Assembly: GCA_951812805.1 (NCBI GenBank)
Contig: CATOSZ010000003.1
Span: forward strand, 2,248,557 to 2,312,556
Source: an uncultured Alphaproteobacteria bacterium
Lineage (GTDB): Bacteria > Pseudomonadota > Alphaproteobacteria > GCA-2731375
Direction of reading: 5' to 3'
DNA length: 64,000 nucleotides
How positions within the stretch are numbered: the stretch's first letter is position 1; the number at the start of each line of letters is the position of its first letter. Below are positions 49,570 through 62,621 of the stretch, piece after piece. Position numbers and translations under genes: made by a program. The notes below the pieces were generated by a model. The model was not told the origin of the DNA. It did no database searches and was given only the letters and a program-made list of their open reading frames with translations.

Positions 49570-50175
49570 ATGGCCTACTATCACGACGGCATGCGGGCCC
49601 TGCAGGATCGATACGAGGGACGCGCGGTGCCCGATCGGCTGGAAGCCAACCGGATGCGTCGTGCCTTCAACGAGGCGGATCGCGATTTCATCGAAAGTTC
49701 GCCCTTCTTCTTTCTCTCGACCGCGTCGGCGGAGAGCGTCGATTGTTCCTTCAAGGGCGGCGATCCGGGCTTCGTGCGTGTCGTCGGCGACAATGCGGTG
49801 GCCTGGCCCGATTACGACGGCAACCGGATGTACCGCAGTCTCGGCAACATCACCGCCAATTCCAGGGTTGGCCTGCTGTTCATCCGTTTCGACGGCAAAC
49901 TGTTCAACGGCGCCGGCCGCCTGCGCATCAACGGCCTGGCGGAATTCGACGATTCGCCCGAGGCGATCTGCGACCTGCCCGGCGCCAAGCGGCTGATCCG
50001 GGTGACGGCGGAGCATATCTTCTCCAACTGTCCACGCTACATCCCGCGCATGGCTATGGAAGAAGCCTCCGTCTACACGCCGCGCGAGGGCCACACGCCG
50101 CCGGATCCCGACTGGAAGTCCATGCCTTTCGTCAAGGATGTGTTCGAGGCGGAGCGCGACGACAAAGGATCGTGA
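49570..50175 (+). CDS. Pyridoxamine 5'-phosphate oxidase-family flavin-binding protein
   Basis: Split-barrel flavoprotein (201 aa). IESSPFFFLSTASAESVDCS forms the first strands, VAWPDYDGNRMYRSLGNITA matches the FMN-contacting region of PNPOx-like proteins, and RVGLLFIRFDGKLFNGAGRL the central sheet. Members oxidise or reduce diverse substrates (FMN or F420-type) or bind haem; housekeeping PdxH is unlikely given the divergent ends. Its 3' end overlaps the convergent MFS gene by 44 bases. Confidence 0.82.
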   Translation: MAYYHDGMRALQDRYEGRAVPDRLEANRMRRAFNEADRDFIESSPFFFLSTASAESVDCSFKGGDPGFVRVVGDNAVAWPDYDGNRMYRSLGNITANSRVGLLFIRFDGKLFNGAGRLRINGLAEFDDSPEAICDLPGAKRLIRVTAEHIFSNCPRYIPRMAMEEASVYTPREGHTPPDPDWKSMPFVKDVFEAERDDKGS

Positions 50176-51346
50176 TCGCGGCGGCCAGATGGACGGCCGC
50201 CAGCAGCCACAGGGCCGGGCCGTAGCCGCCCGCGAGATCGCGCATCCATCCGACTACGCCAGGGCCGACGCCGATGCCGAGCGCCATGCCGATGTTGGCG
50301 AGCGCGTAGATCCGACCGTAGTGGTGGGCGCCGAAGGCCTCGCGCAGCAGCAGGGCGGGCAGCATGACGATGGCGCCGACGGGAAGGCCGATGACGGCGG
50401 CGCCCAGGAACAGCGCGGCCTCGCTGGTGGCCTCGAGGACGATGAGAAACCCGGCGAGCTGGACCAGGTGACAGGCCGCCGTCAGCCAGGCGAGCGACAT
50501 GCGATCGGCGAGCCAGCCGACCAGCAGGCGGCCGACGCCCGCGGCGAGTGCCGTGGCGCTCACCGTCAGGGCCGCGGTCTGCACGCCGAGTTCGACCGCC
50601 AGCAACGGCACCTGGTGGGCAAGAAAGCCGACCTGGGCGAACAGCGCCAGGCCGCAGGCGACGGCGATGCGCCAGAAGGCGAAATCACGAAACAGCCGGG
50701 CGCGGTCCCAGTCCTCAGCGGCCGCGTCGGAAGCCGCCCGCGCGCGGCGCACCGAGCCCTCGCCGAGCGCGTGCACGACGACGGCGAGCGGCAGCATGGT
50801 GCCGGCAACGAAGACGCCGACGCCCGCCGCCATAACGGCGAAGCCCCAGCGTTCCATCGCCCAGACCATGACCGGGGGCAGCACGGCGCCGCCGAGGCTG
50901 GCGCCCGACAGCGCCAGCGCCAGCGCCAGGCCGTAGCGGCGCTGGAACCAGTCGGCGAGCAGCGCGCTGATCGCCGGCGCGGCGAGGGCGGGATAGCCGC
51001 AGGCCATCAGGGGGAAGACCAGAAAAAGCTGCCAGGGCGCCGTCAGATGGCCGAGCGCGGTCACCGCGACGGCGGTGGCGAGCGTGCCGAGCGTGACCAC
51101 CAGGGCGCCGCGGCCCGCCTCGATCAGGCGGGCATAGAACATGGTCGCGGCGATGCCGACGATCCAGCCGAGCGAGACGGCGCTGGAAATCCAGCTGGCC
51201 GGCCAGCCATGCAGGTCGCCGAGGGCGGCCAGATAGACGCTCAGGCCATAGAAGGTGACGCCCCAGGCCACGGTCGCGGAGTAGAAGCCGATCGCGGTGA
51301 TCGCGATGTGGCGCCCGGTCGATTCCGGGTCGCCGGTGGCGCGCAT
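50132..51346 (-). CDS. MFS transporter (last gene of the di-iron/APH/ligase operon)
   Basis: Major facilitator permease of 404 aa with twelve hydrophobic segments. GRLLVGWLADRMSLAWLTAA is the second-half signature. The protein resembles the monocarboxylate-type MFS group (DWFQRRYGLALALALSGASL). Its ATG shares a base with the ligase stop (TGATG at 51344-51348), so it is translationally coupled to that gene and probably imports or exports the pathway substrate. The longer in-frame reading to 51595 is antisense-like and rejected. Confidence 0.88.
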   Translation of the reverse strand: MRATGDPESTGRHIAITAIGFYSATVAWGVTFYGLSVYLAALGDLHGWPASWISSAVSLGWIVGIAATMFYARLIEAGRGALVVTLGTLATAVAVTALGHLTAPWQLFLVFPLMACGYPALAAPAISALLADWFQRRYGLALALALSGASLGGAVLPPVMVWAMERWGFAVMAAGVGVFVAGTMLPLAVVVHALGEGSVRRARAASDAAAEDWDRARLFRDFAFWRIAVACGLALFAQVGFLAHQVPLLAVELGVQTAALTVSATALAAGVGRLLVGWLADRMSLAWLTAACHLVQLAGFLIVLEATSEAALFLGAAVIGLPVGAIVMLPALLLREAFGAHHYGRIYALANIGMALGIGVGPGVVGWMRDLAGGYGPALWLLAAVHLAAAITILCRRAPPRTHP

Positions 51347-52905
51347 CAGCTCACTTGCCGATCTCGGCCCTGCCAATAGGGCTCCCGCAGGTCGGTCTTC
51401 AGGATCTTGCCGGCGCCGCTCAAGGGCAGCGGCTCGTCGCGGAACTCCAGGCTGCGCGGCACCTTGTAGCCGGCGATGAGGGCGCGGCAATGCTCGACCA
51501 GCTCGTCCTCGCCGATGTTCGTGCCGGGCTTCATGCGGACGATGGCGTGTACCCGTTCCCCCCACTTGTCGTCCGGCACGCCGATGACGGCGCATTCGAG
51601 CACGCCGTCGTGCTGATAGAGGGCGTTCTCGACCTCGGCGGAGAACACGTTCTCGCCGCCGCTGATCACCATGTCCTTGATCCGGTCGACGATATAGAAG
51701 AAGCCGTCCTCGTCCATGTAGCCGCCGTCGCCCGTGTGCAGCCAGCCCTCGCGCAGGGTCTCGGCCGACAGCTCCTCCTGCCGCCAGTAGCCGAGCATGA
51801 CGTTGGGCCCGCGCGCGCAGATCTCGCCGACGGTGCCGGGCGGGACCTCGTTGCCGTCCTCGTCCAGGATCTTCAGGTCGACCATCATCGCAGACAGGCC
51901 GATCGAGTTGATCTTGCCGAGGTCGGCGTGCCGGCCGGCGATGTAATCGGTCGGCAGCATGGTCAGGATCGGCGCGGATTCCGTCTGGCCGTAGCCGTGC
52001 ACGAACCGCACCGTCGGCATCAGTTCCAGGGCCTGGCGCACGACCGCCTCCGGCATGGGGGAGGCGCCGTACATCAGGGTTTCGACGGCGCTCAGGTCAT
52101 AGTCGCCGACATCGGGGTGGTTGACGATCATGTTCAGCATCGTCGGCACGTAGATCGTGTGGGTAATGCGAAACCGCTGCATGGCCTCCAGCGCGCCCTC
52201 GGCGCTGAAGCCCGGCACGAAGCAATGCCGGCCACCGGACATGGTGAAGGAGAAGGTGCCGAGCGCGTCGGCCTGATGGAACATCGGCGCGATATGCAGC
52301 CAGCACGAGTCGCGACCGATCTCCAGGCTGTAGAGCACCTGCATGGCGTTGGCGACGATGTTCCGGTGGCTCAACATCACGCCCTTCGAGCGCCCGGTGG
52401 TGCCGCCCGTATAGAACAGACCCGCGAGATCGTCGTCGCCCTTGCCGGCGTCCGGCGCGGGCGCGCTATCGGCGATGAGCGTTTCGTGCGCGTTCATGCC
52501 CGCCGGCGTCTCGCCCTCGGACAAATAGACCAGACGTTCGACCGAGGGCACCGCGTCGGCGATCCCCTGCCAGAGTTCGAGGAAGGTCGCGTCGACGCAG
52601 AAGATGCGCGCCTCGGAATCGTTCAGCCAGTGCACCACCTCCGGCCCGGCGAGGCGTGAGTTGACCGGCACGAAGACGCCGCCCGCCCAGGTAATGGCGT
52701 ACAGCATCTCGAAATACTGCACCGAATTCAGCGAGAGGATCGCGACCCGGTCGCCGTCCTCGAGGCCGAGCGCCTTCAACCCGCCGGCGAGACGTTGGAT
52801 CCGCGCCATCGTCTCCAGCCAGTTGCGCTTGTAGCCTTCGCCCTCGACGGCTATACCGTCGCCGTTCATCTGCACGGCGCGTTTCAGTCCCTGGGTCAGT
52901 TGCAT
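51346..52905 (-). CDS. Acyl-CoA synthetase (AMP-forming)
   Basis: Adenylate-forming acyl-CoA ligase (519 aa). DLAGLFYTGGTTGRSKGVML is the ATP-binding P-loop, FYIVDRIKDMVISGGENVFS the hinge, and LPLSGAGKILKTDLRE contains the catalytic lysine. The order in the operon, after two APH-type kinases, parallels pathways in which a hydroxy acid is first converted to its CoA ester and then phosphorylated. It starts 17 bases after the second kinase gene and overlaps the MFS start. Substrate chain length is not determinable. Confidence 0.93.
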   Translation of the reverse strand: MQLTQGLKRAVQMNGDGIAVEGEGYKRNWLETMARIQRLAGGLKALGLEDGDRVAILSLNSVQYFEMLYAITWAGGVFVPVNSRLAGPEVVHWLNDSEARIFCVDATFLELWQGIADAVPSVERLVYLSEGETPAGMNAHETLIADSAPAPDAGKGDDDLAGLFYTGGTTGRSKGVMLSHRNIVANAMQVLYSLEIGRDSCWLHIAPMFHQADALGTFSFTMSGGRHCFVPGFSAEGALEAMQRFRITHTIYVPTMLNMIVNHPDVGDYDLSAVETLMYGASPMPEAVVRQALELMPTVRFVHGYGQTESAPILTMLPTDYIAGRHADLGKINSIGLSAMMVDLKILDEDGNEVPPGTVGEICARGPNVMLGYWRQEELSAETLREGWLHTGDGGYMDEDGFFYIVDRIKDMVISGGENVFSAEVENALYQHDGVLECAVIGVPDDKWGERVHAIVRMKPGTNIGEDELVEHCRALIAGYKVPRSLEFRDEPLPLSGAGKILKTDLREPYWQGRDRQVS

Positions 52906-52922: not shown

Positions 52923-53984
52923 TCACATCCGCTCGACCATCTGCCAGGCCTGATCGGCCCGCAAGCGGCAGATATCCTTGTATTCGATCGACTGCGCCGA
53001 AGCCGAGATCCCGTCGAGGCCCCGCTTGTAGACGCCCTGCACGATCGCCGCGATGCGGAAGATGGCGAAAACGACATAGAAATGCCAGTTCTCGATGTCG
53101 CCGCGCCCGGTCAGCTCGCAGTAGCGGGTGACGAGCTCTTCCTCCGTGGGGATGCCGGTGGCCTCGAAGTCGGTGTCCAGGAAGTTGCCGGTACGTCCCG
53201 TATCCACGTGATAGACCATCAAGGTATAGGCGAGGTCGGCGAGCGGATGGCCGAGCGTCGAGAGTTCCCAGTCCAGCACCGCGACGACGCGCGGCGCGTT
53301 CGGATGCACCAGGCAATTGCCGATCCGGTAGTCGCCGTGCACCAGCGTGGTCTCGTCCGTCTCCGGGATGTTGTCCGGCAGCCAGTCGATCAATCGATCC
53401 ATCGACGGTATCGGCTCCGTTTCCGACGCGCGATACTGTTTGGCCCAACGGTCGTACTGACGGCGGTAATAGTTTCCGGGCCGGCCGAATTCGCCGAGGC
53501 CGACGGCCGCGTGATCGACATTGTGCAGGGCGGCCAGGCATTCGATGAAATTCATCGTCAGTGGCTTGCGCTCCGCCTTCGGGACTTCGTCCAGGCGCGG
53601 GTCGACCATCAGGCGGCCCGGCACGTGGCTCATCAGGAAGAAGGGCGTGCCGACGATGCTCTCGTCCTCGCACAGCAGGTAAGTCTCGGGCACCGGCACG
53701 GCGGTGTCGCGAAGCGCGGTGATGACCCGGTATTCCCGCTCGACCGCATGGGCGGACGGCAACAGCTTGCCGGGCGGTTTCTTGCGCATGACGTAGTAGC
53801 GTCCGCCCGCCTCCAGGAAATAGGTCGGGTTGGACTGTCCGCCTTCGAACTGGCGGACGATCAGCGGGCCCTGGTAGCCCTCGAGATGAGCGGTGAGGTA
53901 ACGCGCCAACGCCGCCTCGTCCAGCACATGGGCCGGGCGAACCGGGATGATCTCGACGCCCTGATATTCCGCTTCGTGGCTCAT
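52923..53984 (-). CDS. APH-family phosphotransferase (ACAD10/11-type), paralogue 2
   Basis: Kinase-like phosphotransferase of 353 aa. FEGGQSNPTYFL and YYVMRKKPPGKLLPSAHAVE form the ATP-binding lobe of the acyl-CoA-dehydrogenase-associated APH subgroup. The catalytic loop is LVHGDYRIGNCLVHPNAP (H-G-D-x-x-x-x-N) and the metal aspartate is in VLDWELSTLGHPLADLAY. Related proteins (LvaA in levulinate catabolism, the N-terminal part of ACAD10/11) phosphorylate 4-hydroxyacyl-CoA. The ATG overlaps the stop of paralogue 1 by 4 bases. Confidence 0.9.
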   Translation of the reverse strand: MSHEAEYQGVEIIPVRPAHVLDEAALARYLTAHLEGYQGPLIVRQFEGGQSNPTYFLEAGGRYYVMRKKPPGKLLPSAHAVEREYRVITALRDTAVPVPETYLLCEDESIVGTPFFLMSHVPGRLMVDPRLDEVPKAERKPLTMNFIECLAALHNVDHAAVGLGEFGRPGNYYRRQYDRWAKQYRASETEPIPSMDRLIDWLPDNIPETDETTLVHGDYRIGNCLVHPNAPRVVAVLDWELSTLGHPLADLAYTLMVYHVDTGRTGNFLDTDFEATGIPTEEELVTRYCELTGRGDIENWHFYVVFAIFRIAAIVQGVYKRGLDGISASAQSIEYKDICRLRADQAWQMVERM

Positions 53985-55057
53985 TGCGCGATCTTCTCCA
54001 CCTGCGCCCAGGCCGCCTCGGCCATTGGCCGGGCCCGCTTGCCTTCCTCCGCCGCATGCTCGCTCGCCGCGGTCCCGTCCAGCGCGCGGCCCATGATGCC
54101 TTGCAGGATCGCCGCCAGGCGGAACATGTTGTAGGCCTGATACCAGTCGATGTCGTCAATACCGGCCCGGCCGGTGCGCCGGCAATAGGCCGCGACGAAG
54201 TCGGCCTCGCTCGGAATGCCGAGGGCCTCGATATCCTGGCCGCCGACGCCGCGAAAGAGGTCACCGCCGAGGCGCCAGCCCATCAGCAGATAGGTGAAAT
54301 CCGCCAGCGGATGGCCGAGCGTCGCCAGCTCCCAGTCCAGCACCGCCAGCACGCGGGGCTCGGTCGGGTGGAAGATCATGTTGTCGAGGCGGTAGTCGCC
54401 ATGCACCAGGCAGGTCTCGTCCTCGGCCGTCAGTGTCGCCGGCAGCCACTCGATCAGGCGATCCATCTCCGGGATCGTCTCGGTCTCGGAGGCCTTGTAC
54501 TGCTTGGTCCAGCGCGAGATCTGGCGCTGGATATACTGTCCCGGCCGGCCGAAATCGCCGAGGCCCACCGCCTCGTAGTCGACCTTGTGCAGATCGGCCA
54601 TGACCTCGCCCATGGCGTCGTAGATCCGATAGCGCTCCGGCTTTGAGAGGTCGGGCAGCGTCGGGTCCCAGAACACCCGGCCCTCGACCCACTCCATGAT
54701 GTAGAAGGCGGTGCCGACGATGTCCTCGTCCTCGCACAGCACGTGGGTTCGCGGCACCGGCACCGGCGTATCGGCGAGCGCGGTGATCACCCGGTATTCA
54801 CGCTCCACCGCATGGGCGGACGGCAGCAGCTTGCCGGGCGGCTTGCGGCGCAGCACGTAATTCGCGCCGCCGGCGCTCAAGCGGTAGGTCGGGCAGGACT
54901 GGCCGCCCTTGAACTGCTCGACCTCCAGGGTGCCGGAGAACCCGTCGACATGGGCTTCCATATAGCGCTGCAGGCGCGCCACCTCGAAGCGATGCTGTTC
55001 GCGCACCGCCATGGTGCCCGAGAAGTTGCGCTGCATCTCGGCGCCACGATCCGCCAT
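53981..55057 (-). CDS. APH-family phosphotransferase (ACAD10/11-type), paralogue 1
   Basis: 358-aa paralogue of the next gene. EQFKGGQSCPTYRLSAGGAN and YVLRRKPPGKLLPSAHAVER are conserved. The catalytic loop is LVHGDYRLDNMIFHPTEP and VLDWELATLGHPLADFTY holds the metal aspartate. Both copies keep all kinase residues, so they are probably two active enzymes or a heteromer. The product ends with AWAQVEKIAQ. The upstream di-iron protein gene ends 26 bases before this start. By family analogy the substrate is a hydroxyacyl-CoA made by the downstream ligase. Confidence 0.9.
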   Translation of the reverse strand: MADRGAEMQRNFSGTMAVREQHRFEVARLQRYMEAHVDGFSGTLEVEQFKGGQSCPTYRLSAGGANYVLRRKPPGKLLPSAHAVEREYRVITALADTPVPVPRTHVLCEDEDIVGTAFYIMEWVEGRVFWDPTLPDLSKPERYRIYDAMGEVMADLHKVDYEAVGLGDFGRPGQYIQRQISRWTKQYKASETETIPEMDRLIEWLPATLTAEDETCLVHGDYRLDNMIFHPTEPRVLAVLDWELATLGHPLADFTYLLMGWRLGGDLFRGVGGQDIEALGIPSEADFVAAYCRRTGRAGIDDIDWYQAYNMFRLAAILQGIMGRALDGTAASEHAAEEGKRARPMAEAAWAQVEKIAQ

Positions 55058-55083
55058 GTCGGCCCCCCTTCGGCGACGCTGGC

Positions 55084-56196
55084 TCAGGCGGCGGTTTTCG
55101 CGGCGATGTCGCGCCGCCCGCTGTTGATCGCCAGCAAATAGTCGATACCGTCCCGTGCGATGGCATCTCCTACCATCTCGTCGCCCTCCGCCTCCAGCTC
55201 GGCCATGTCGACCCAGTTGGCATAGAGGCCGCGCGTCCGCTTGGTGACGATACCGGCCTTGACCAGGGTGCGGACCAGGACACGGAAGATGTTCGTTCCT
55301 TCCTTCAGTTCGCCCCGCCGGTCGCTCTCGTCATAGACCTCGCGGATGCTGTCGCGCAACTCCTTCCAGTCGATACCGAACTGGCCGTAGACAGCGCGCT
55401 TCTGGCGGATGTTGACCAGATTGAACAGCAGGGATTCGAAACATTCCGCCGCCCAGTCCTCGATCGAATGGCGTTCCGCCTGGCTGAGCGCTGGCATGGT
55501 GCGGTCGGCCCAGATCTTGCCAAAGCGATGATGGAAGGCCTCGTCCGTCATCACCAGCTGGACCAGGCGTTTGAGGACGGGATCGTTGGTGTGGGCGTGG
55601 ATGTTGGCGAAGGTACCCATCGCCAGGCCCTCCAGCAGCATCTGCATGCCGACCACTTTCTTCCAGACGACGTCGGTGTGAACGAGCTCTTCCAGCAGGT
55701 CGCCCAATGTCTCGCCAATCGGAAATGCGGTACCCCAGCGGCTTTCGACATACATCGCGAAACCGGTGACGTGGCGCGCCTCCTCGCGGGCCTGGTTGGC
55801 GGCGTATTCCTGCGCGCCCACATCGTGCAACAAGCTGCACAGCCCGGCGGACAGCGAGAGCGCACCCTGCTCGCCATGCAGAATGGAAGACAGCTGCCAG
55901 CGCATGACCTCATTGGCAAGGCGGGTCTGGTCCTCCTTCGACAGCGCCTGGACAAGAGGACTGCGGAATTCCGCGAGGCGCTGCATCGGCATGATGCTGT
56001 CACGCGTCAGGTCGAACGGTTCGGAGAAATCGAGATAGCGACGGTCGGTCGGATCCCAGAAATGCTCGTGTGTCGCGGAGATGATGGTATCGAAGGCGTC
56101 GGAGCGGCGATTGTAGCGCTCCACCTCGAACATTCGGCGGAAATCCTTCGGATCGACGACATCATAGGCCGGATCGTAGGTCAGTTGTTCCGACAT
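55084..56196 (-). CDS. Ferritin-like di-iron protein (putative oxygenase)
   Basis: 370-aa helical protein. A complete four-helix di-iron set is visible: Glu109 (HGEQGAL), Glu139-x-x-His142 (EEARHVTGF), Glu190 (LLEGLAM) and Glu219-x-x-His222 (DEAFHHRFG). This is the ferritin-like E/ExxH/E/ExxH pattern of hydroxylases, desaturases and N-oxygenases. There is no membrane helix or signal peptide, so it should be cytoplasmic. It is the first gene of the operon with the two APH kinases, ligase and MFS. An oxygenase that introduces the hydroxyl group used by the kinases is an attractive inference, not shown. Confidence 0.85.
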   Translation of the reverse strand: MSEQLTYDPAYDVVDPKDFRRMFEVERYNRRSDAFDTIISATHEHFWDPTDRRYLDFSEPFDLTRDSIMPMQRLAEFRSPLVQALSKEDQTRLANEVMRWQLSSILHGEQGALSLSAGLCSLLHDVGAQEYAANQAREEARHVTGFAMYVESRWGTAFPIGETLGDLLEELVHTDVVWKKVVGMQMLLEGLAMGTFANIHAHTNDPVLKRLVQLVMTDEAFHHRFGKIWADRTMPALSQAERHSIEDWAAECFESLLFNLVNIRQKRAVYGQFGIDWKELRDSIREVYDESDRRGELKEGTNIFRVLVRTLVKAGIVTKRTRGLYANWVDMAELEAEGDEMVGDAIARDGIDYLLAINSGRRDIAAKTAA

Positions 56197-56347: not shown

Positions 56348-57619
56348 TCAAAAGAAGACGTAGGAACGAACCACGACATTCTTGCGGCAAGGCGCGTCCA
56401 GCGGCACCGTCGGATCGACGCAGGCGGTGTGGAAGGACCAGCGCGAGACCGAGCCGTCGGTGATGGAATCGTAGCACTTCAGCATCGACATCTCGTTCGG
56501 CTGCTGCTGCGGGATCCAGTACCACTCGTGGTCGGCGCGGTGCGTGAAGCGGGTCGTCTCGCCGACGCGGTCGTCGTAGATGCGGTAGTTGTTGACGTAG
56601 GGCTGGTCGGCGAACGACGGCCAGGCGCACAGCACGAAGGGATACTGTTCCACCGTCTCCATCGGCTTGGCGAGGTTGATCGACATGAAGCGGCGCGACA
56701 TCTTCGCGTCCGCCTCGGCCTCGGTGTAATGCTGTTCACGCCCGAAATTGCGCAGGTTCTTGGTCAACAACTCACGGCAGCGCACGCGCCCGCTGTTGTC
56801 GTTCAGGTCGTTGTGCACCAGGTTGGCGTAATTGGCGTTGACGCCCGGGTTCTTGGCGTCCTGGTCCTCGGTCCGGTCGCCCGTGTAGTCCTTGTCGAAG
56901 ACGTCGTGGTTGTAGACCAGGGCGTCTGTGGCGCCGGGGAAGAAATCGAGGAGAAGCTGCTCGATCTCCGGATAGAAGACCCGCTCCACCTCGCCCGAAT
57001 CGTAGAAGTTCTGGCACTTCGATTCGATATGCGCCAGGGAAACGCCGAGCCTGTCCATGCTCTCGGGGCTGGTGGGCGACAGGCCGGGGTAATACTCCTC
57101 GATCCGGCGCGCGTCGCGCATGACCTGCGGGAAGTAGAGGCAGCGTTTGGCGTTGTCCTTCTCCATCTTCCGCAGCGCCTCGGCATCGGCCTCCCGCGAC
57201 GGATCGTGCCAGAGCGCATTGGACGAGACGATGGAATAGGACGGATATTCGTTGACCGTATAGCGCAGCGGCAGCGCCAGGCCGCCCTCCGGCGCTTCGA
57301 TGCCGTTGGCCCGGATGTAGTCGACGCACTCGTCATACTCGCGGAAGCCGACACCCCACTTGGTCTCGATCGGGCCGGGAGGTCCGTTATCGAGCATGTC
57401 GATGACGTCCTGGCCTTCGCCGTCGGCGATCTGCTTCAGCGCGGCGTCCATCGCCTTGGCGGTGCCGGCGTCGCCATCGACGTCGAAGGCCATGTAGGAC
57501 AGGCCGTCGTTGGCTGCGATGGGCGGCGGCTGGCCCTCGGTACGCTCCAGGGTCGGGACGTAGACGGACCCCTCCGCTTCCACCGCATCATGGCCGGAGA
57601 TGACTTTGCGCTCGTTCAT
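56348..57619 (-). CDS. CmcJ/NvfI-family oxidoreductase
   Basis: 423-aa protein of the CmcJ/NvfI (AsaB-like) family, related to Fe(II)/2-oxoglutarate enzymes of fungal and streptomycete secondary metabolism. Characteristic blocks are DALVYNHDVFDKDYTGD, YANLVHNDLNDNSGRVR, MSRRFMSINLAKPMETVEQY, FTHRADHEWYWIPQQQPNEM and MLKCYDSITDGSVSRWSFHT. The two histidine-containing segments (VHNDLND; FHTACVDP) are candidate iron ligands. GGAGG lies 7 bases before the ATG. It is monocistronic and divergent from a hybrid kinase (162 bases), with no biosynthetic partners beside it. Confidence 0.82.
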   Translation of the reverse strand: MNERKVISGHDAVEAEGSVYVPTLERTEGQPPPIAANDGLSYMAFDVDGDAGTAKAMDAALKQIADGEGQDVIDMLDNGPPGPIETKWGVGFREYDECVDYIRANGIEAPEGGLALPLRYTVNEYPSYSIVSSNALWHDPSREADAEALRKMEKDNAKRCLYFPQVMRDARRIEEYYPGLSPTSPESMDRLGVSLAHIESKCQNFYDSGEVERVFYPEIEQLLLDFFPGATDALVYNHDVFDKDYTGDRTEDQDAKNPGVNANYANLVHNDLNDNSGRVRCRELLTKNLRNFGREQHYTEAEADAKMSRRFMSINLAKPMETVEQYPFVLCAWPSFADQPYVNNYRIYDDRVGETTRFTHRADHEWYWIPQQQPNEMSMLKCYDSITDGSVSRWSFHTACVDPTVPLDAPCRKNVVVRSYVFF

Positions 57620-57781: not shown

Positions 57782-59848
57782 ATGCAGATCGACAAAAACA
57801 ATACGGAGAGTCCCGTGTGCTCTCCCACGGTATTGCAGAATATCCTGGATACGCTCGACCAGGGCGTCGCGCTTTTCGATGCGTCACGGCGCCTGGTTGT
57901 CGCGACCCCGGCTCTGCGGACCGGATTCGGGTTCCCCGATGACGTCATGAAGGTCGGAGCGTCCTGCTATTCGATCTTTCGTTTCCTTGCTGAGCGCGGG
58001 GACTACGGCCCCGGAGATCCAGCGGAACTGACCGAGAACCGCCTGCGCGTGGTTTGGAGCGGCACGCCCTCGCGTGTCGAAGTCTTGGTGCGCGGCAAGG
58101 TCTGGTATGAAATCGCGGTTCGACCCTTCGCCGGCGGCGGCATCTTGATAACGCAGATAGATATCAATGAACGCAAGAGGGCCGAATTGGCACTGCGCGA
58201 AAGCGAGGCACGGTTTCGCGATTTCGCCGATGTGGCATCCGATTGGTTCTGGGAGGTCGACGAGCAGCTGCGCTTTACGATGGTCACCGACGGTATCCGG
58301 AAATACAACGGCGGGGTGGACCCGAGCGGGACCTATGGATTGACGCGCCAGGAGCTGAATATACGCGGTGGCGTCAGCTCGCCGGCGTGGGACAGGCATC
58401 TCGCGGATCTGGAGGCGCGGCGCGAATTCAGAGCCTTCGAGTACCGGGTCGCGGATCCGCATGGCGGCTTGCACGATTGGTCGGTATCCGGCCGGCCGTT
58501 TTATGATGCGGACGGGGTCTTCGCCGGCTACCGGGGTGTCGGGCGCGATATCAGCCGTCGCAACACCATGATCGAGGAGCTGCGGCAGAGCAAAGAGCAA
58601 CTCGAGATCGAGATCTCCGAACGACGCGATCGGGAGGAGAGATTGGAATCGCAGGCAACGCAGTTGACCGAGCTGGCGGAGAACGAGAGTTTCCTGCGAC
58701 AGTCGGCCGAAGCCGCGGAACACGCCAAATCCAATTTCCTGGCCACCATGAGCCACGAGATCCGCACGCCGATGACGGCCGTTCTCGGCATGGCGGATCT
58801 GTTGCTGAAAACCGAACTCGACGATGAACAGCGCGATTTGGCGGGAGAGGTCCGTCGTTCCGGCGCCGCGCTTCTGACGATCATCAACGATGTTCTCGAC
58901 CAGGCCAAGCTGGTGGCAGGCAAGATGGATCTGGATCCGACCGACTTCGATCTGCCGGGCGCCGTCACCGCCTGCGCCGAAGCCCTGCGGATCCAGGCCC
59001 GGGACAAGAGCGTCGAGATGATCGTCGAAATCGACGACGACGTTGCGAAATTCGTGCGTCAGGATCACGGTCGGTTGCGGCAGGTGTTGCTCAATCTGAT
59101 CGGCAACGCCGTGAAGTTCACGGCCGCGGGCAGCGTCACGACACGTGTCCATCGGACCTCGGGCTCGGCCACCGACATGCGTTTGCGGTTCGAAGTGGTC
59201 GATACCGGGATCGGCATCGATCCCGATGCCGTCGGGCGCCTGTTCGACGCCTTCGAACAGGCCGATCGCAGCACGATGCGGCAGTTCGGTGGGACGGGTC
59301 TCGGCCTCTCCATTTCGAAACAGATCGTCGAATTGATGGGCGGCGAGATCGGTGTCGAAAGCGCGCCGGGGGTGGGAAGCACGTTCTGGTTCACCATACC
59401 CGTGCGCTCGGCCAGGTCCGACGCGACGGCGAACGTCGCGGCCGGCGACGACGACGCGGCGCCATCCTGTTCACCCTTGCGGATCCTGGTGGCCGAGGAC
59501 CATCCGGTGAACCAGGTGCTCATTGCGAAGATTCTCACGAGCCTGGGTCATCAGTGCGAAATGACGCGTGACGGCAGTGAACTGGTCGAGAAGTTTCCCC
59601 GCAGCGACGTCGACCTGATCCTGACCGATATACAAATGCCGCGCATGGGCGGCGTCGAAGCGACGGAGAAGATCCGTGCCGGCGGTCCGATCGGCAAGTC
59701 CATCCCCATTATCGCGCTGACCGCGGATGCGATGACGGATCGCATCGAAGTCTTTCGCAACGCCGGCATCGATGCCGTGGTGACGAAGCCGATCGATATC
59801 CAAGAGCTGACGTCGACGATCCATCAGGTCATGCAGGACAGAGCCTGA
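57782..59848 (+). CDS. Hybrid sensor histidine kinase (PAS-PAS-HisKA-HATPase-REC)
   Basis: 688 aa with no membrane helix, hence probably cytoplasmic. Residues ~15-135 and ~145-265 are PAS domains (the first ends ITQIDINERKRAELALRESE, the second GYRGVGRDISRRNTMIEELR), and a coiled coil follows. His325 in MSHEIRTPM is the phospho-acceptor, RLRQVLLNLIGNAVKFTAAG the N-box, and GTGLGLSISKQI the G2 box. The C-terminal receiver has Asp616 in LTDIQMPRMGG. The output partner is unknown. The frame stays open upstream to 56333, but that part is antisense to the CmcJ-family gene, so ATG 57782 is the start. Confidence 0.93.
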   Translation: MQIDKNNTESPVCSPTVLQNILDTLDQGVALFDASRRLVVATPALRTGFGFPDDVMKVGASCYSIFRFLAERGDYGPGDPAELTENRLRVVWSGTPSRVEVLVRGKVWYEIAVRPFAGGGILITQIDINERKRAELALRESEARFRDFADVASDWFWEVDEQLRFTMVTDGIRKYNGGVDPSGTYGLTRQELNIRGGVSSPAWDRHLADLEARREFRAFEYRVADPHGGLHDWSVSGRPFYDADGVFAGYRGVGRDISRRNTMIEELRQSKEQLEIEISERRDREERLESQATQLTELAENESFLRQSAEAAEHAKSNFLATMSHEIRTPMTAVLGMADLLLKTELDDEQRDLAGEVRRSGAALLTIINDVLDQAKLVAGKMDLDPTDFDLPGAVTACAEALRIQARDKSVEMIVEIDDDVAKFVRQDHGRLRQVLLNLIGNAVKFTAAGSVTTRVHRTSGSATDMRLRFEVVDTGIGIDPDAVGRLFDAFEQADRSTMRQFGGTGLGLSISKQIVELMGGEIGVESAPGVGSTFWFTIPVRSARSDATANVAAGDDDAAPSCSPLRILVAEDHPVNQVLIAKILTSLGHQCEMTRDGSELVEKFPRSDVDLILTDIQMPRMGGVEATEKIRAGGPIGKSIPIIALTADAMTDRIEVFRNAGIDAVVTKPIDIQELTSTIHQVMQDRA

Positions 59849-59866: not shown

Positions 59867-61135
59867 TTACCGGCGAAGCGCGCGGGCACCGATATCGCGC
59901 CGGCAGAAGCCGCCTGGCCAGTCGATGATGTCGACGGCTTCATAGGCCCGGGCCCGCGCCGCCTCGATGTCCGCGCCGCTCGCCGTCACGCCCAGGACCC
60001 GTCCGCCGTTCGCCAACAGGCGGCCGTCGTCGCGCAGCGTGCCGGCATGGAAGACGGTGACGCCCGGCAGTTCGCCGGCCGGGCCCAGGCCGGCGATCTC
60101 GCTGCCCTTCTCGTAGCTTTCGGGATAGCCGTTCGCGGCCATCACCACGACCATCGCCGCGTCGTCGCGCCAGCGCAGGTCGACGTTGCGCAGCTGACCG
60201 TCGGCCGTGGCCATCAAGGCCGGCAGGACGTCGGAGCGCAGCCGGGCCATCAGCACCTGGCATTCCGGATCGCCGAAGCGGCAGTTGTATTCGATCAGGT
60301 GCGGGCCCGCCTCGTTGATCATGAGGCCGGCGAACAGCACGCCCTTGAAGGGTCTGCCCTTCTCGGCCATGGCGCGGATCGTCGGCTCGATGATGCGGCT
60401 CATCGTCGCCTCGACCATCGCGTCATCCATCACCGGGGCGGGGGAGTAGGCGCCCATGCCGCCGGTGTTGGGACCGGTATCGCCGTCGCCGACCCGCTTG
60501 TGGTCCTGCGCGGTCGCGAGCGGCAGCACGCTCTCTCCGTCGGCAAGGGCGAAGAAGCTCGCCTCCTCGCCGTGCAGGAATTCCTCGATGACGATTTCGG
60601 CGCCGGCCGCGCCGAAGCGGCCGCCCAGGATCTCGCCCGCCGCCTGGATCGCCGTTTCGACGTCTTCGGCGACGATGGCGCCCTTGCCCGCCGCCAGGCC
60701 GTCCGCCTTGACGACGATGGGCGCACCCATCGCCTGGATATGGGCGGCGGCGGCCTCGAGGTCGGTGAAGCGCTCGTAGGCGGCCGTGGGAATGCCGACC
60801 TCGGCGCAGAGTTCCTTGGTGAAGGCCTTCGAGCCTTCCAGCACCGCGCCCGCCGCGCTCGGGCCGAAGGCCTTGATTCCGGCGGCGTCCAGCCGGTCGA
60901 CCAGGCCGGCGACCAGCGGCGCTTCCGGCCCGACGACGACGAAGTCGATTGCCTCGGAACGGCAGAAGCCGAGGATGCCGTCGAAGTCCATGGGGTCGAT
61001 GTCGACGGTCCGTGCGATCTCGGCGATGCCGGCGTTGCCGGGCGCGCAGAACAGCCGCTCGGTCAGGGGGGAATCGGCGATCGCCCAGCAGAGCGCGTGC
61101 TCCCGCCCACCCGAGCCGACGACAAGAATGTCCAT
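59867..61135 (-). CDS. purD: Phosphoribosylamine-glycine ligase
   Basis: GAR synthetase, the second step of purine biosynthesis (422 aa). It begins [20 protein letters not shown], has the ATP-grasp signatures [20 protein letters not shown] and [20 protein letters not shown], and [20 protein letters not shown] for metal and phosphate binding. The start at 61135 matches the family N-terminus; a longer in-frame extension to 61231 overlaps the divergent xseA start and is rejected. It converges with the hybrid kinase (18 bases). Confidence 0.96.
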
Positions 61136-61205
61136 GCTTCCCTCCGCACTTCCCGTGGGCGCGGGCTCTTGTATCATGGGCTCGGATTCGAGGACAAACG
61201 AGCCG

Positions 61206-62621
61206 ATGGACCAACCAGAACCAAGCGCCAACCTACCGGAATTGAGCGTCTCCGAGCTCTCCTTCCACCTGAAGCGGATCGTCGAGGACGCCTTCCCCTA
61301 TGTCCGCGTGCGCGGCGAGATCTCGGGCTTCGTGCAGGCCCGCTCCGGCCATCTCTACATGAGCCTGAAGGACGACAAGTCGGTCCTGGACGGGGTCTGC
61401 TGGCGGGGCACGGCCCGCGGCCTCGGCTGTCGGCCGGAGGATGGGCTGGAGGTGATCTGCACCGGCAAGCTCACCACTTATCCCGGCCGCTCGCGCTATC
61501 AGCTGGTGATCGAGCGGATGGAGCCGGCCGGCGTCGGTGCCCTGATGGCGCTGCTGGAGGAACGGCGGCGCAAGCTCGGCGCCGAGGGCCTGTTCGCGGA
61601 GGAACGCAAGCGGCCGCTGCCCTACCTGCCCGAGGTGATCGGTGTCGTCACCTCGCCGACCGGCGCGGTCATCCGCGACATTCTGCACCGGCTGCGCGAC
61701 CGCTTCCCCCGCCGGGTCCTGCTCTGGCCGACCCTGGTGCAGGGGGAGGGGGCGGCCGAACAGGTGGCGGCGGCGATCCGCGGCTTCAATCGCTTCGCCG
61801 AGGACGGGCCGTTGCCGCGCCCGGATGTGCTGATCGTGGCCCGCGGCGGCGGCAGCATCGAAGATCTCTGGGCCTTCAACGAGGAGGTCGTGGTGCGCGC
61901 CGCGGCCGAAAGCGAGATCCCGCTGATCTCCGCCGTCGGCCACGAGACCGACACGACTTTGATCGATCACGCGAGCGACCGGCGTGCGCCCACGCCGACG
62001 GCGGCGGCGGAAATGGCGGTGCCGGTGCGCCTCGATCTCGCCGGGCAGGTGGAGGAGTTCGGCCGTCGCCAGGACACCGCCTTGCGTCGCCGGCTGGAGG
62101 AAAGCCGCCATCGCGTCGAGGGCCTGGCCCGCGGCCTGCGGGGACCGCGCGAACTGCTCGGCCTGGCGAGCCAGCGCTTCGACGACCTGGCGGAACGCTT
62201 GCCACGCGCCCTCTCGGCTTTGGCCCGCGAGCGCCACGGCCGCCTGCGTGAGTTGGCCGCCCAGCTTCGCCCGCGCCTGCTGGCCGGCGAGGTCGCCCGC
62301 CAGGGGGAACGGCTGGCGGAGCTCGACGCCCGCGCGCGGCGGGCGGAACGCAACCGGCGGGAACGGACGGTGGAACGGTTGCGCGGCCTGGGCCAGAGAT
62401 TGGAAAACCTCTCCTACCGCAACGTGCTGGCGCGCGGCTATGCGGTGGCGCGCACGGCGGACGGCCAGCCCCTGACCACGGCCGGGTCTGCGACGCCCGG
62501 CCTCGCCCTCGACCTCGAGTTCCACGACGGTCATGTGGCGGCGAGCGTCGACGGCGGCGTGTCGAGCGCGCCGGTCCGTCGCCGGGCCAAGCCGAAGCCC
62601 GGCCAGGGCGAGCTGTTTTGA
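61206..62621 (+). CDS. xseA: Exodeoxyribonuclease VII large subunit
   Basis: Catalytic subunit of exonuclease VII (471 aa), which degrades single-stranded DNA. The N-terminal OB-fold covers about residues 13-110 ([20 protein letters not shown]). The conserved core has [37 protein letters not shown] and [20 protein letters not shown], followed by a long coiled coil and [12 protein letters not shown]. The small subunit gene xseB is not in the window. It is divergent from purD by 70 bases and overlaps the M23 gene by 4. Confidence 0.96.

Follow-up and report, generated by a model that had tools for sequence, protein, structure and literature searches.

Two ACAD10/11-type kinases beside a di-metal carboxylate protein in an alphaproteobacterial operon: a candidate variant of the 4-hydroxy acid pathway

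An operon in the 64,000-nucleotide stretch of DNA analysed here (the window) probably serves the breakdown of 4-hydroxy acids by a variant of the ACAD10/11 (LvaA/LvaC) pathway, in which a ferritin-like di-metal protein, DI, would act upstream of two kinases, APH1 and APH2. Such kinases, in humans as in Pseudomonas, phosphorylate 4-hydroxy fatty acids, so that the hydroxyl is removed and the acid is used as fuel. The interesting part of the locus is the pairing of DI with the kinases. Their usual partner, an acyl-CoA dehydrogenase (ACAD) of the ACAD11 type, is encoded on another contig of the source genome.

The operon and its paired kinases

The operon consists of five minus-strand genes, encoding DI, APH1, APH2, an AMP-forming acyl-CoA ligase and an MFS permease (Table 1). 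The coordinates of the open reading frames confirm the gaps of 26 and 17 bases and the overlaps of 4 and 1 bases between these genes described in the original prediction. The interval that it gave, 52923-56196, covers DI and both kinases, but the operon extends to 50132. Family scans found an AMP-binding and a C-terminal domain in the ligase and MFS_1 in the permease, whose best NCBIfam model, SfMCT, scored below its cut-off. A promoter and terminator scan returned 0 promoter-like sites and is uninformative in this GC-rich alphaproteobacterial sequence. The CmcJ-type oxidoreductase gene upstream is possibly a member of the same transcription unit and lies outside the recurring trio DI-APH1-APH2. 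Thirteen other genomes in the class sample, from many families, have copies of this oxidoreductase that are 76-83% identical, an unusually high conservation given its patchy distribution. At the opposite end, a PPOX-type FMN flavoprotein gene (49570-50175, plus strand) is convergent to the MFS gene and overlaps its 3' end by 44 bases.

Table 1. Genes of the operon and of its upstream flank, in window positions
Feature	Position	Strand	Description
DI	55084..56196	-	370-aa ferritin-like di-metal carboxylate protein, predicted R2lox/AurF/ADO-like fold
APH1	53981..55057	-	358-aa putative ACAD10/11-type hydroxyacyl-CoA kinase
APH2	52923..53984	-	353-aa putative ACAD10/11-type kinase, paralogous; separate tree branch
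Acyl-CoA ligase, AMP-forming	51346..52905	-	519 aa; PRK06187-type long-chain fatty-acid--CoA ligase subfamily
MFS permease	50132..51346	-	ATG at 51346; monocarboxylate-transporter-like
CmcJ/NvfI/EfuI-family oxidoreductase	56348..57619	-	5' of DI, 151-base gap
PAS hybrid histidine kinase	57884..59848	+	Start approximate; between purD and operon
purD	59867..61231	-	Anchor of the kinase locus in other Alphaproteobacteria
xseA	60786..62621	+	Second anchor of the kinase locus; coding part from near 61190

APH1 and APH2 both match the APH family (PF01636) with E values of 1e-50 or better and carry the GGQSxPT / KPPGKLLPSAHAV motifs, in keeping with the GGQSNPT-type subtype to which they had been assigned. 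In a search against solved structures, the ACAD11 kinase domain was aligned over its full length with APH1 (E 3e-82) and APH2 (E 7e-83). The same search matched both kinases to 3dxp (E 3e-138 and 5e-109), a structure whose deposition title reads putative acyl-CoA dehydrogenase, yet whose sequence is kinase-like. The ACAD11 structure paper names the catalytic residues D220 and N225 and, as contacts to CoA, R176 and the Arg beside the alphaC glutamate (PMC12440821). Our alignment, in which the ACAD11 numbering is offset by one from the PDB chain and the paper's R86 is equated with the Arg beside the alphaC Glu, places counterparts of all these residues in both kinases, and the metal Asp of the DWE motif is kept in both as well. 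Since both window copies keep their catalytic residues, neither looks like a dead duplicate. Matches to NCBIfam models of aminoglycoside or macrolide phosphotransferases were far below cut-off, and these identities were rejected. The domain homology, together with the catalytic and CoA-contact residues, gives good support to the original assignment of APH1 and APH2 as putative 4-hydroxyacyl-CoA kinases of the ACAD10/11 type, and to the kinase step that they would catalyse. LvaA itself shares only 29% identity with the kinases of ACAD10/11; in vitro, a single-domain relative from Burkholderia substitutes for the ACAD10 kinase, which itself favours the R epimer about fourfold (PMC11342911).

No other ACAD11-type kinase is present in the source genome. 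In the tree, APH1 and APH2 fall into separate family groups (support 99/99 and 100/99), each made up of the window copy and the corresponding copy of its relatives. Almost every genome of the family keeps both groups, which disfavours redundancy of the two kinases. Most of the 15 genomes in the window's family have the two kinase genes side by side. Tandem kinases are found in at least five families; besides that of the window, four families of the class sample have adjacent or nearly adjacent pairs (G009, G143 and G242; G121 and G225; G041, G168 and G265; G093).

The dehydrogenase and the split purD-tadA locus

In other Alphaproteobacteria one or two kinase genes sit immediately downstream of purD, beside the divergent xseA. 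They are followed by an optional PAS histidine kinase gene and a convergent ACAD gene, and then by tadA and rluB (L171-L177, L179, L186 and others, in several families), the order in relatives being xseA / purD > APH1 > APH2 ... < ACAD - tadA - rluB. The ACAD of this locus matches the ACAD domain of ACAD11 with an E value of 8e-141. The window keeps the xseA-purD end, whose proteins are 65% and 57% identical to those of L171; here purD is separated from the kinases by a hybrid histidine kinase, the CmcJ-type oxidoreductase and DI. Contig C18 of the source genome carries the ACAD-tadA end, with the ACAD at L199:8607-9869 and tadA just upstream of it. The kinase-ACAD locus is thus split in this genome, and the window retains its xseA/purD side. 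PAS-type histidine kinases adjoin the kinases in L171-L174 and L186; their similarity to the PAS hybrid of the window is low (30%).

The C18 ACAD is an intact frame of 420 aa, 67% identical to the L171 locus ACAD, the next-best protein of the genome reaching only 38%, and it is the one ACAD11-type ACAD of the source genome. Identical to the ACAD domain of ACAD11 at 222 of 396 positions, it keeps R626, H634-C635-M636-R637 and D753. Together with the two kinases, it means that the genome encodes each of the two catalytic steps known for the pathway. The original prediction had taken the absence of an ACAD to set the operon apart from lva. No LvaC-type ACAD accompanies the kinases and the ligase among the five operon genes, so the absence is true of the operon but false of the genome. 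It is not a distinguishing trait either, because the genome has the C18 enzyme and the same-family locus L036 has an ACAD inside its DI-kinase operon.

Compared with mammalian ACAD10/ACAD11, APH1 and APH2 span the whole kinase domain, and the C18 ACAD aligns with the ACAD domain. The kinase is fused to the ACAD in the mammalian proteins, whereas here they are separate genes, with two kinases per ACAD, an unlinked ACAD, and a ligase, an MFS permease and a putative di-metal oxygenase accompanying the kinases. The lva operon of Pseudomonas putida (LvaA, LvaC, LvaE) is alike in combining kinase, ligase and transporter, with an LvaC-type ACAD present in our genome too. It differs in that here the ACAD lies outside the operon, there is no SDR, the kinase is doubled and a di-metal protein is added. 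DUF6285 (PF19802), which we take to be LvaB, was not found in the source genome.

The di-metal protein and its linkage to the kinases

DI was modelled with a pLDDT of 91.5 and a pTM of 0.90 as a ferritin-like di-metal fold, in agreement with the di-iron site expected from its sequence. Among known structures, R2lox is the best match to the model (Z 20.7; 14% identity; 241 residues aligned at an rmsd of 3.1), and ribonucleotide reductase R2 comes a close second; the AurF N-oxygenase and the cyanobacterial aldehyde-deformylating oxygenase (ADO) are also present in the Foldseek list. The ligand set E/ExxH/E/ExxH that had been read from the sequence is complete (E109, E139xxH142, E189, E219xxH222), and all six residues are invariant in an alignment of 50 homologues, including 14 with no more than 22-26% identity. 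A profile built from these homologues matches R2lox homologue II (E 5e-8) and ADO (E 5e-7), with the metal ligands lined up, and weak matches to AurF and ADO are found in 48 and 35 of the 50 members, respectively. An R2lox/AurF/ADO-like fold is predicted for DI with high confidence. Among the members of the alignment A1, AurF matches reach 8.7e-22. A second DI-like family (L133-L152), with about 22-26% overall identity and the identical six ligands, often occurs in genomes that also hold the close family.

Membership of DI in any of these families was rejected. In the Pfam and NCBIfam scans no family model passed its cut-off: AurF reached 24.6 bits against a gathering score of 29.6, which indicates remote kinship only, and the ADO model TIGR04059 reached 19.9 bits against 222.65. 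DI does have the six metal ligands of R2lox in an R2-like fold. It is nevertheless not an R2lox proper, because Val72 and Tyr162, the ether cross-link pair of R2lox (PMC6060897), correspond to A112 (invariant) and M184 when read at E+3 and E-5 of the matching DI ligands. Since one R2lox, GkR2loxI, has been reported to be an alkane monooxygenase (PMC10867098), a hydroxylase role for DI is reasonable, if unproven.

DI is present at high similarity in 39 of the 289 genomes of the class sample, and 4 more have distant paralogues only. In the neighbourhoods examined (80 named loci and 20 more), it mostly stands alone, unlinked to kinases and in many contexts, among them the clpS/clpA side in Sneathiella, MMPL, P450 and MmcB genes in Parvibaculum relatives, and coq7/S41/amidase in the window's family. 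Because these contexts vary, DI alone gives no pathway, and because the gene is unlinked in many Alphaproteobacteria, it is not specific to the kinase pathway. In Parvibaculum-related loci (L063, L064, L067, L079, L112 and others) two DI paralogues within a few kb of each other are accompanied by P450 genes and an MMPL-type transporter, with a gene for a distant APH-fold kinase (PF01636) just downstream.

Linkage of DI, APH1 and APH2 was found in four genomes of one family, namely that of the window, G067 (L036), G290 (L054/L158) and G299 (L052/L163), in three chromosomal settings, two of them besides the purD locus of the window. The L036 operon reads ACAD > luciferase-like > DI > APH1 > APH2. 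In the coq7/S41/amidase setting, DI is separated from APH1 by an alpha/beta hydrolase (L054) or by another reading frame (L052). In about half of the family's genomes the kinases are present but a close DI is not, and at least one, G292, has both but apart. Across the class sample, the trio recurs in these three other genomes, but neither the ligase nor the MFS permease was found beside it there and the five-gene set as a whole was found nowhere else. Relatives of the ligase are common. Ligases and permeases do partner such kinases: in an independent family, L220 and L221 each have an MFS - APH - ACAD - ligase run next to a TonB receptor, and in L227 a ligase adjoins a kinase. This run (L220:3690-9001, L221:5023-10304, and L222:6218-10255, where the MFS was not called) is another lva-like catabolic set, with an ACAD of a second type that is 27-28% identical to the ACAD11 type. 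Overall, the original prediction is partly supported: the type of kinase and the recurrence of kinase, ligase and MFS speak for it; the missing ACAD is no hallmark, and the complete set of five genes was seen only in the window.

This distribution bears on whether DI belongs to the pathway at all. It is quite conceivable that DI is a bystander with an independent function, such as alkane or fatty-acid hydroxylation, and that only the kinases, the ligase, the MFS permease and the distant ACAD form the pathway. The mostly kinase-unlinked occurrence of DI across the 39 genomes fits a bystander, while the recurrence of the trio in three settings within one family argues against it. DI is also found in 11 of 13 tandem-kinase genomes versus 28 of 276 others, and kinases in 37 of 39 DI genomes versus 67 of 250 others, counts that ignore phylogeny; being confounded by phylogeny and lifestyle, this co-occurrence is not taken as proof.

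Two other readings concern the kinases. As a class, kinases with the APH fold phosphorylate many alcohols, and the 4-hydroxy specificity of APH1 and APH2 comes from homology only; their substrate might be another hydroxyacyl-CoA (3-, 5- or 6-hydroxy) or a non-CoA alcohol, in a different pathway served by related kinases. We regard this as rather improbable, as both retain the CoA-contact residues and the partner ACAD, which adjoins the kinases in many relatives, has all the ACAD11-specific residues. A plain lva-type operon for levulinate or a gamma-lactone, with no new chemistry and with the second kinase a redundant duplicate, would agree with the outline of ligase, permease and kinase. It is unlikely given that the operon has neither an LvaD-like SDR nor an ACAD, and that the two kinases form distinct groups, each retained in almost every genome of the family.

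A candidate pathway and its meaning

In the variant ACAD10/11 pathway that we favour, the MFS permease would import a carboxylic acid and the ligase would convert it to a CoA thioester, as their families suggest. APH1 and/or APH2 would phosphorylate the 4-hydroxyl of the hydroxyacyl-CoA, a step strongly supported by homology and by the ACAD11 residues. The C18 dehydrogenase, with its catalytic residues intact, would then eliminate the phosphate to yield a 2-enoyl-CoA for beta-oxidation. Most likely, each kinase serves substrates of its own, set apart by R/S configuration or chain length, or the two act as a heterodimer. DI, as a putative O2-activating di-metal enzyme, most likely works ahead of the kinases and supplies them with a hydroxylated acyl chain by oxidising the substrate; we infer that it is an oxygenase recruited into a 4-hydroxyacyl-CoA catabolic module. 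A more far-reaching version, doubtful at this stage, is an undescribed O2-dependent route in which DI hydroxylates a chain refractory to beta-oxidation, the paired kinases, possibly as a heterodimer, activate the hydroxyl and the ACAD11-type enzyme eliminates it. If true, this would be an O2-dependent route in which a hydroxyl is put in so as to be taken out.

The chemistry of ACAD10/11 and LvaA/LvaC on 4-hydroxy acids was elucidated only recently. Alphaproteobacteria keep a split, chromosomally anchored version of this system (purD - kinase - kinase - ACAD11-type ACAD). It often has two distinct kinases, and one family ties it to a widespread, uncharacterised family of putative di-metal oxygenases. 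The link between DI and the kinases may thus offer a concrete handle on the function of these oxygenases and on the reason for the paired kinases.
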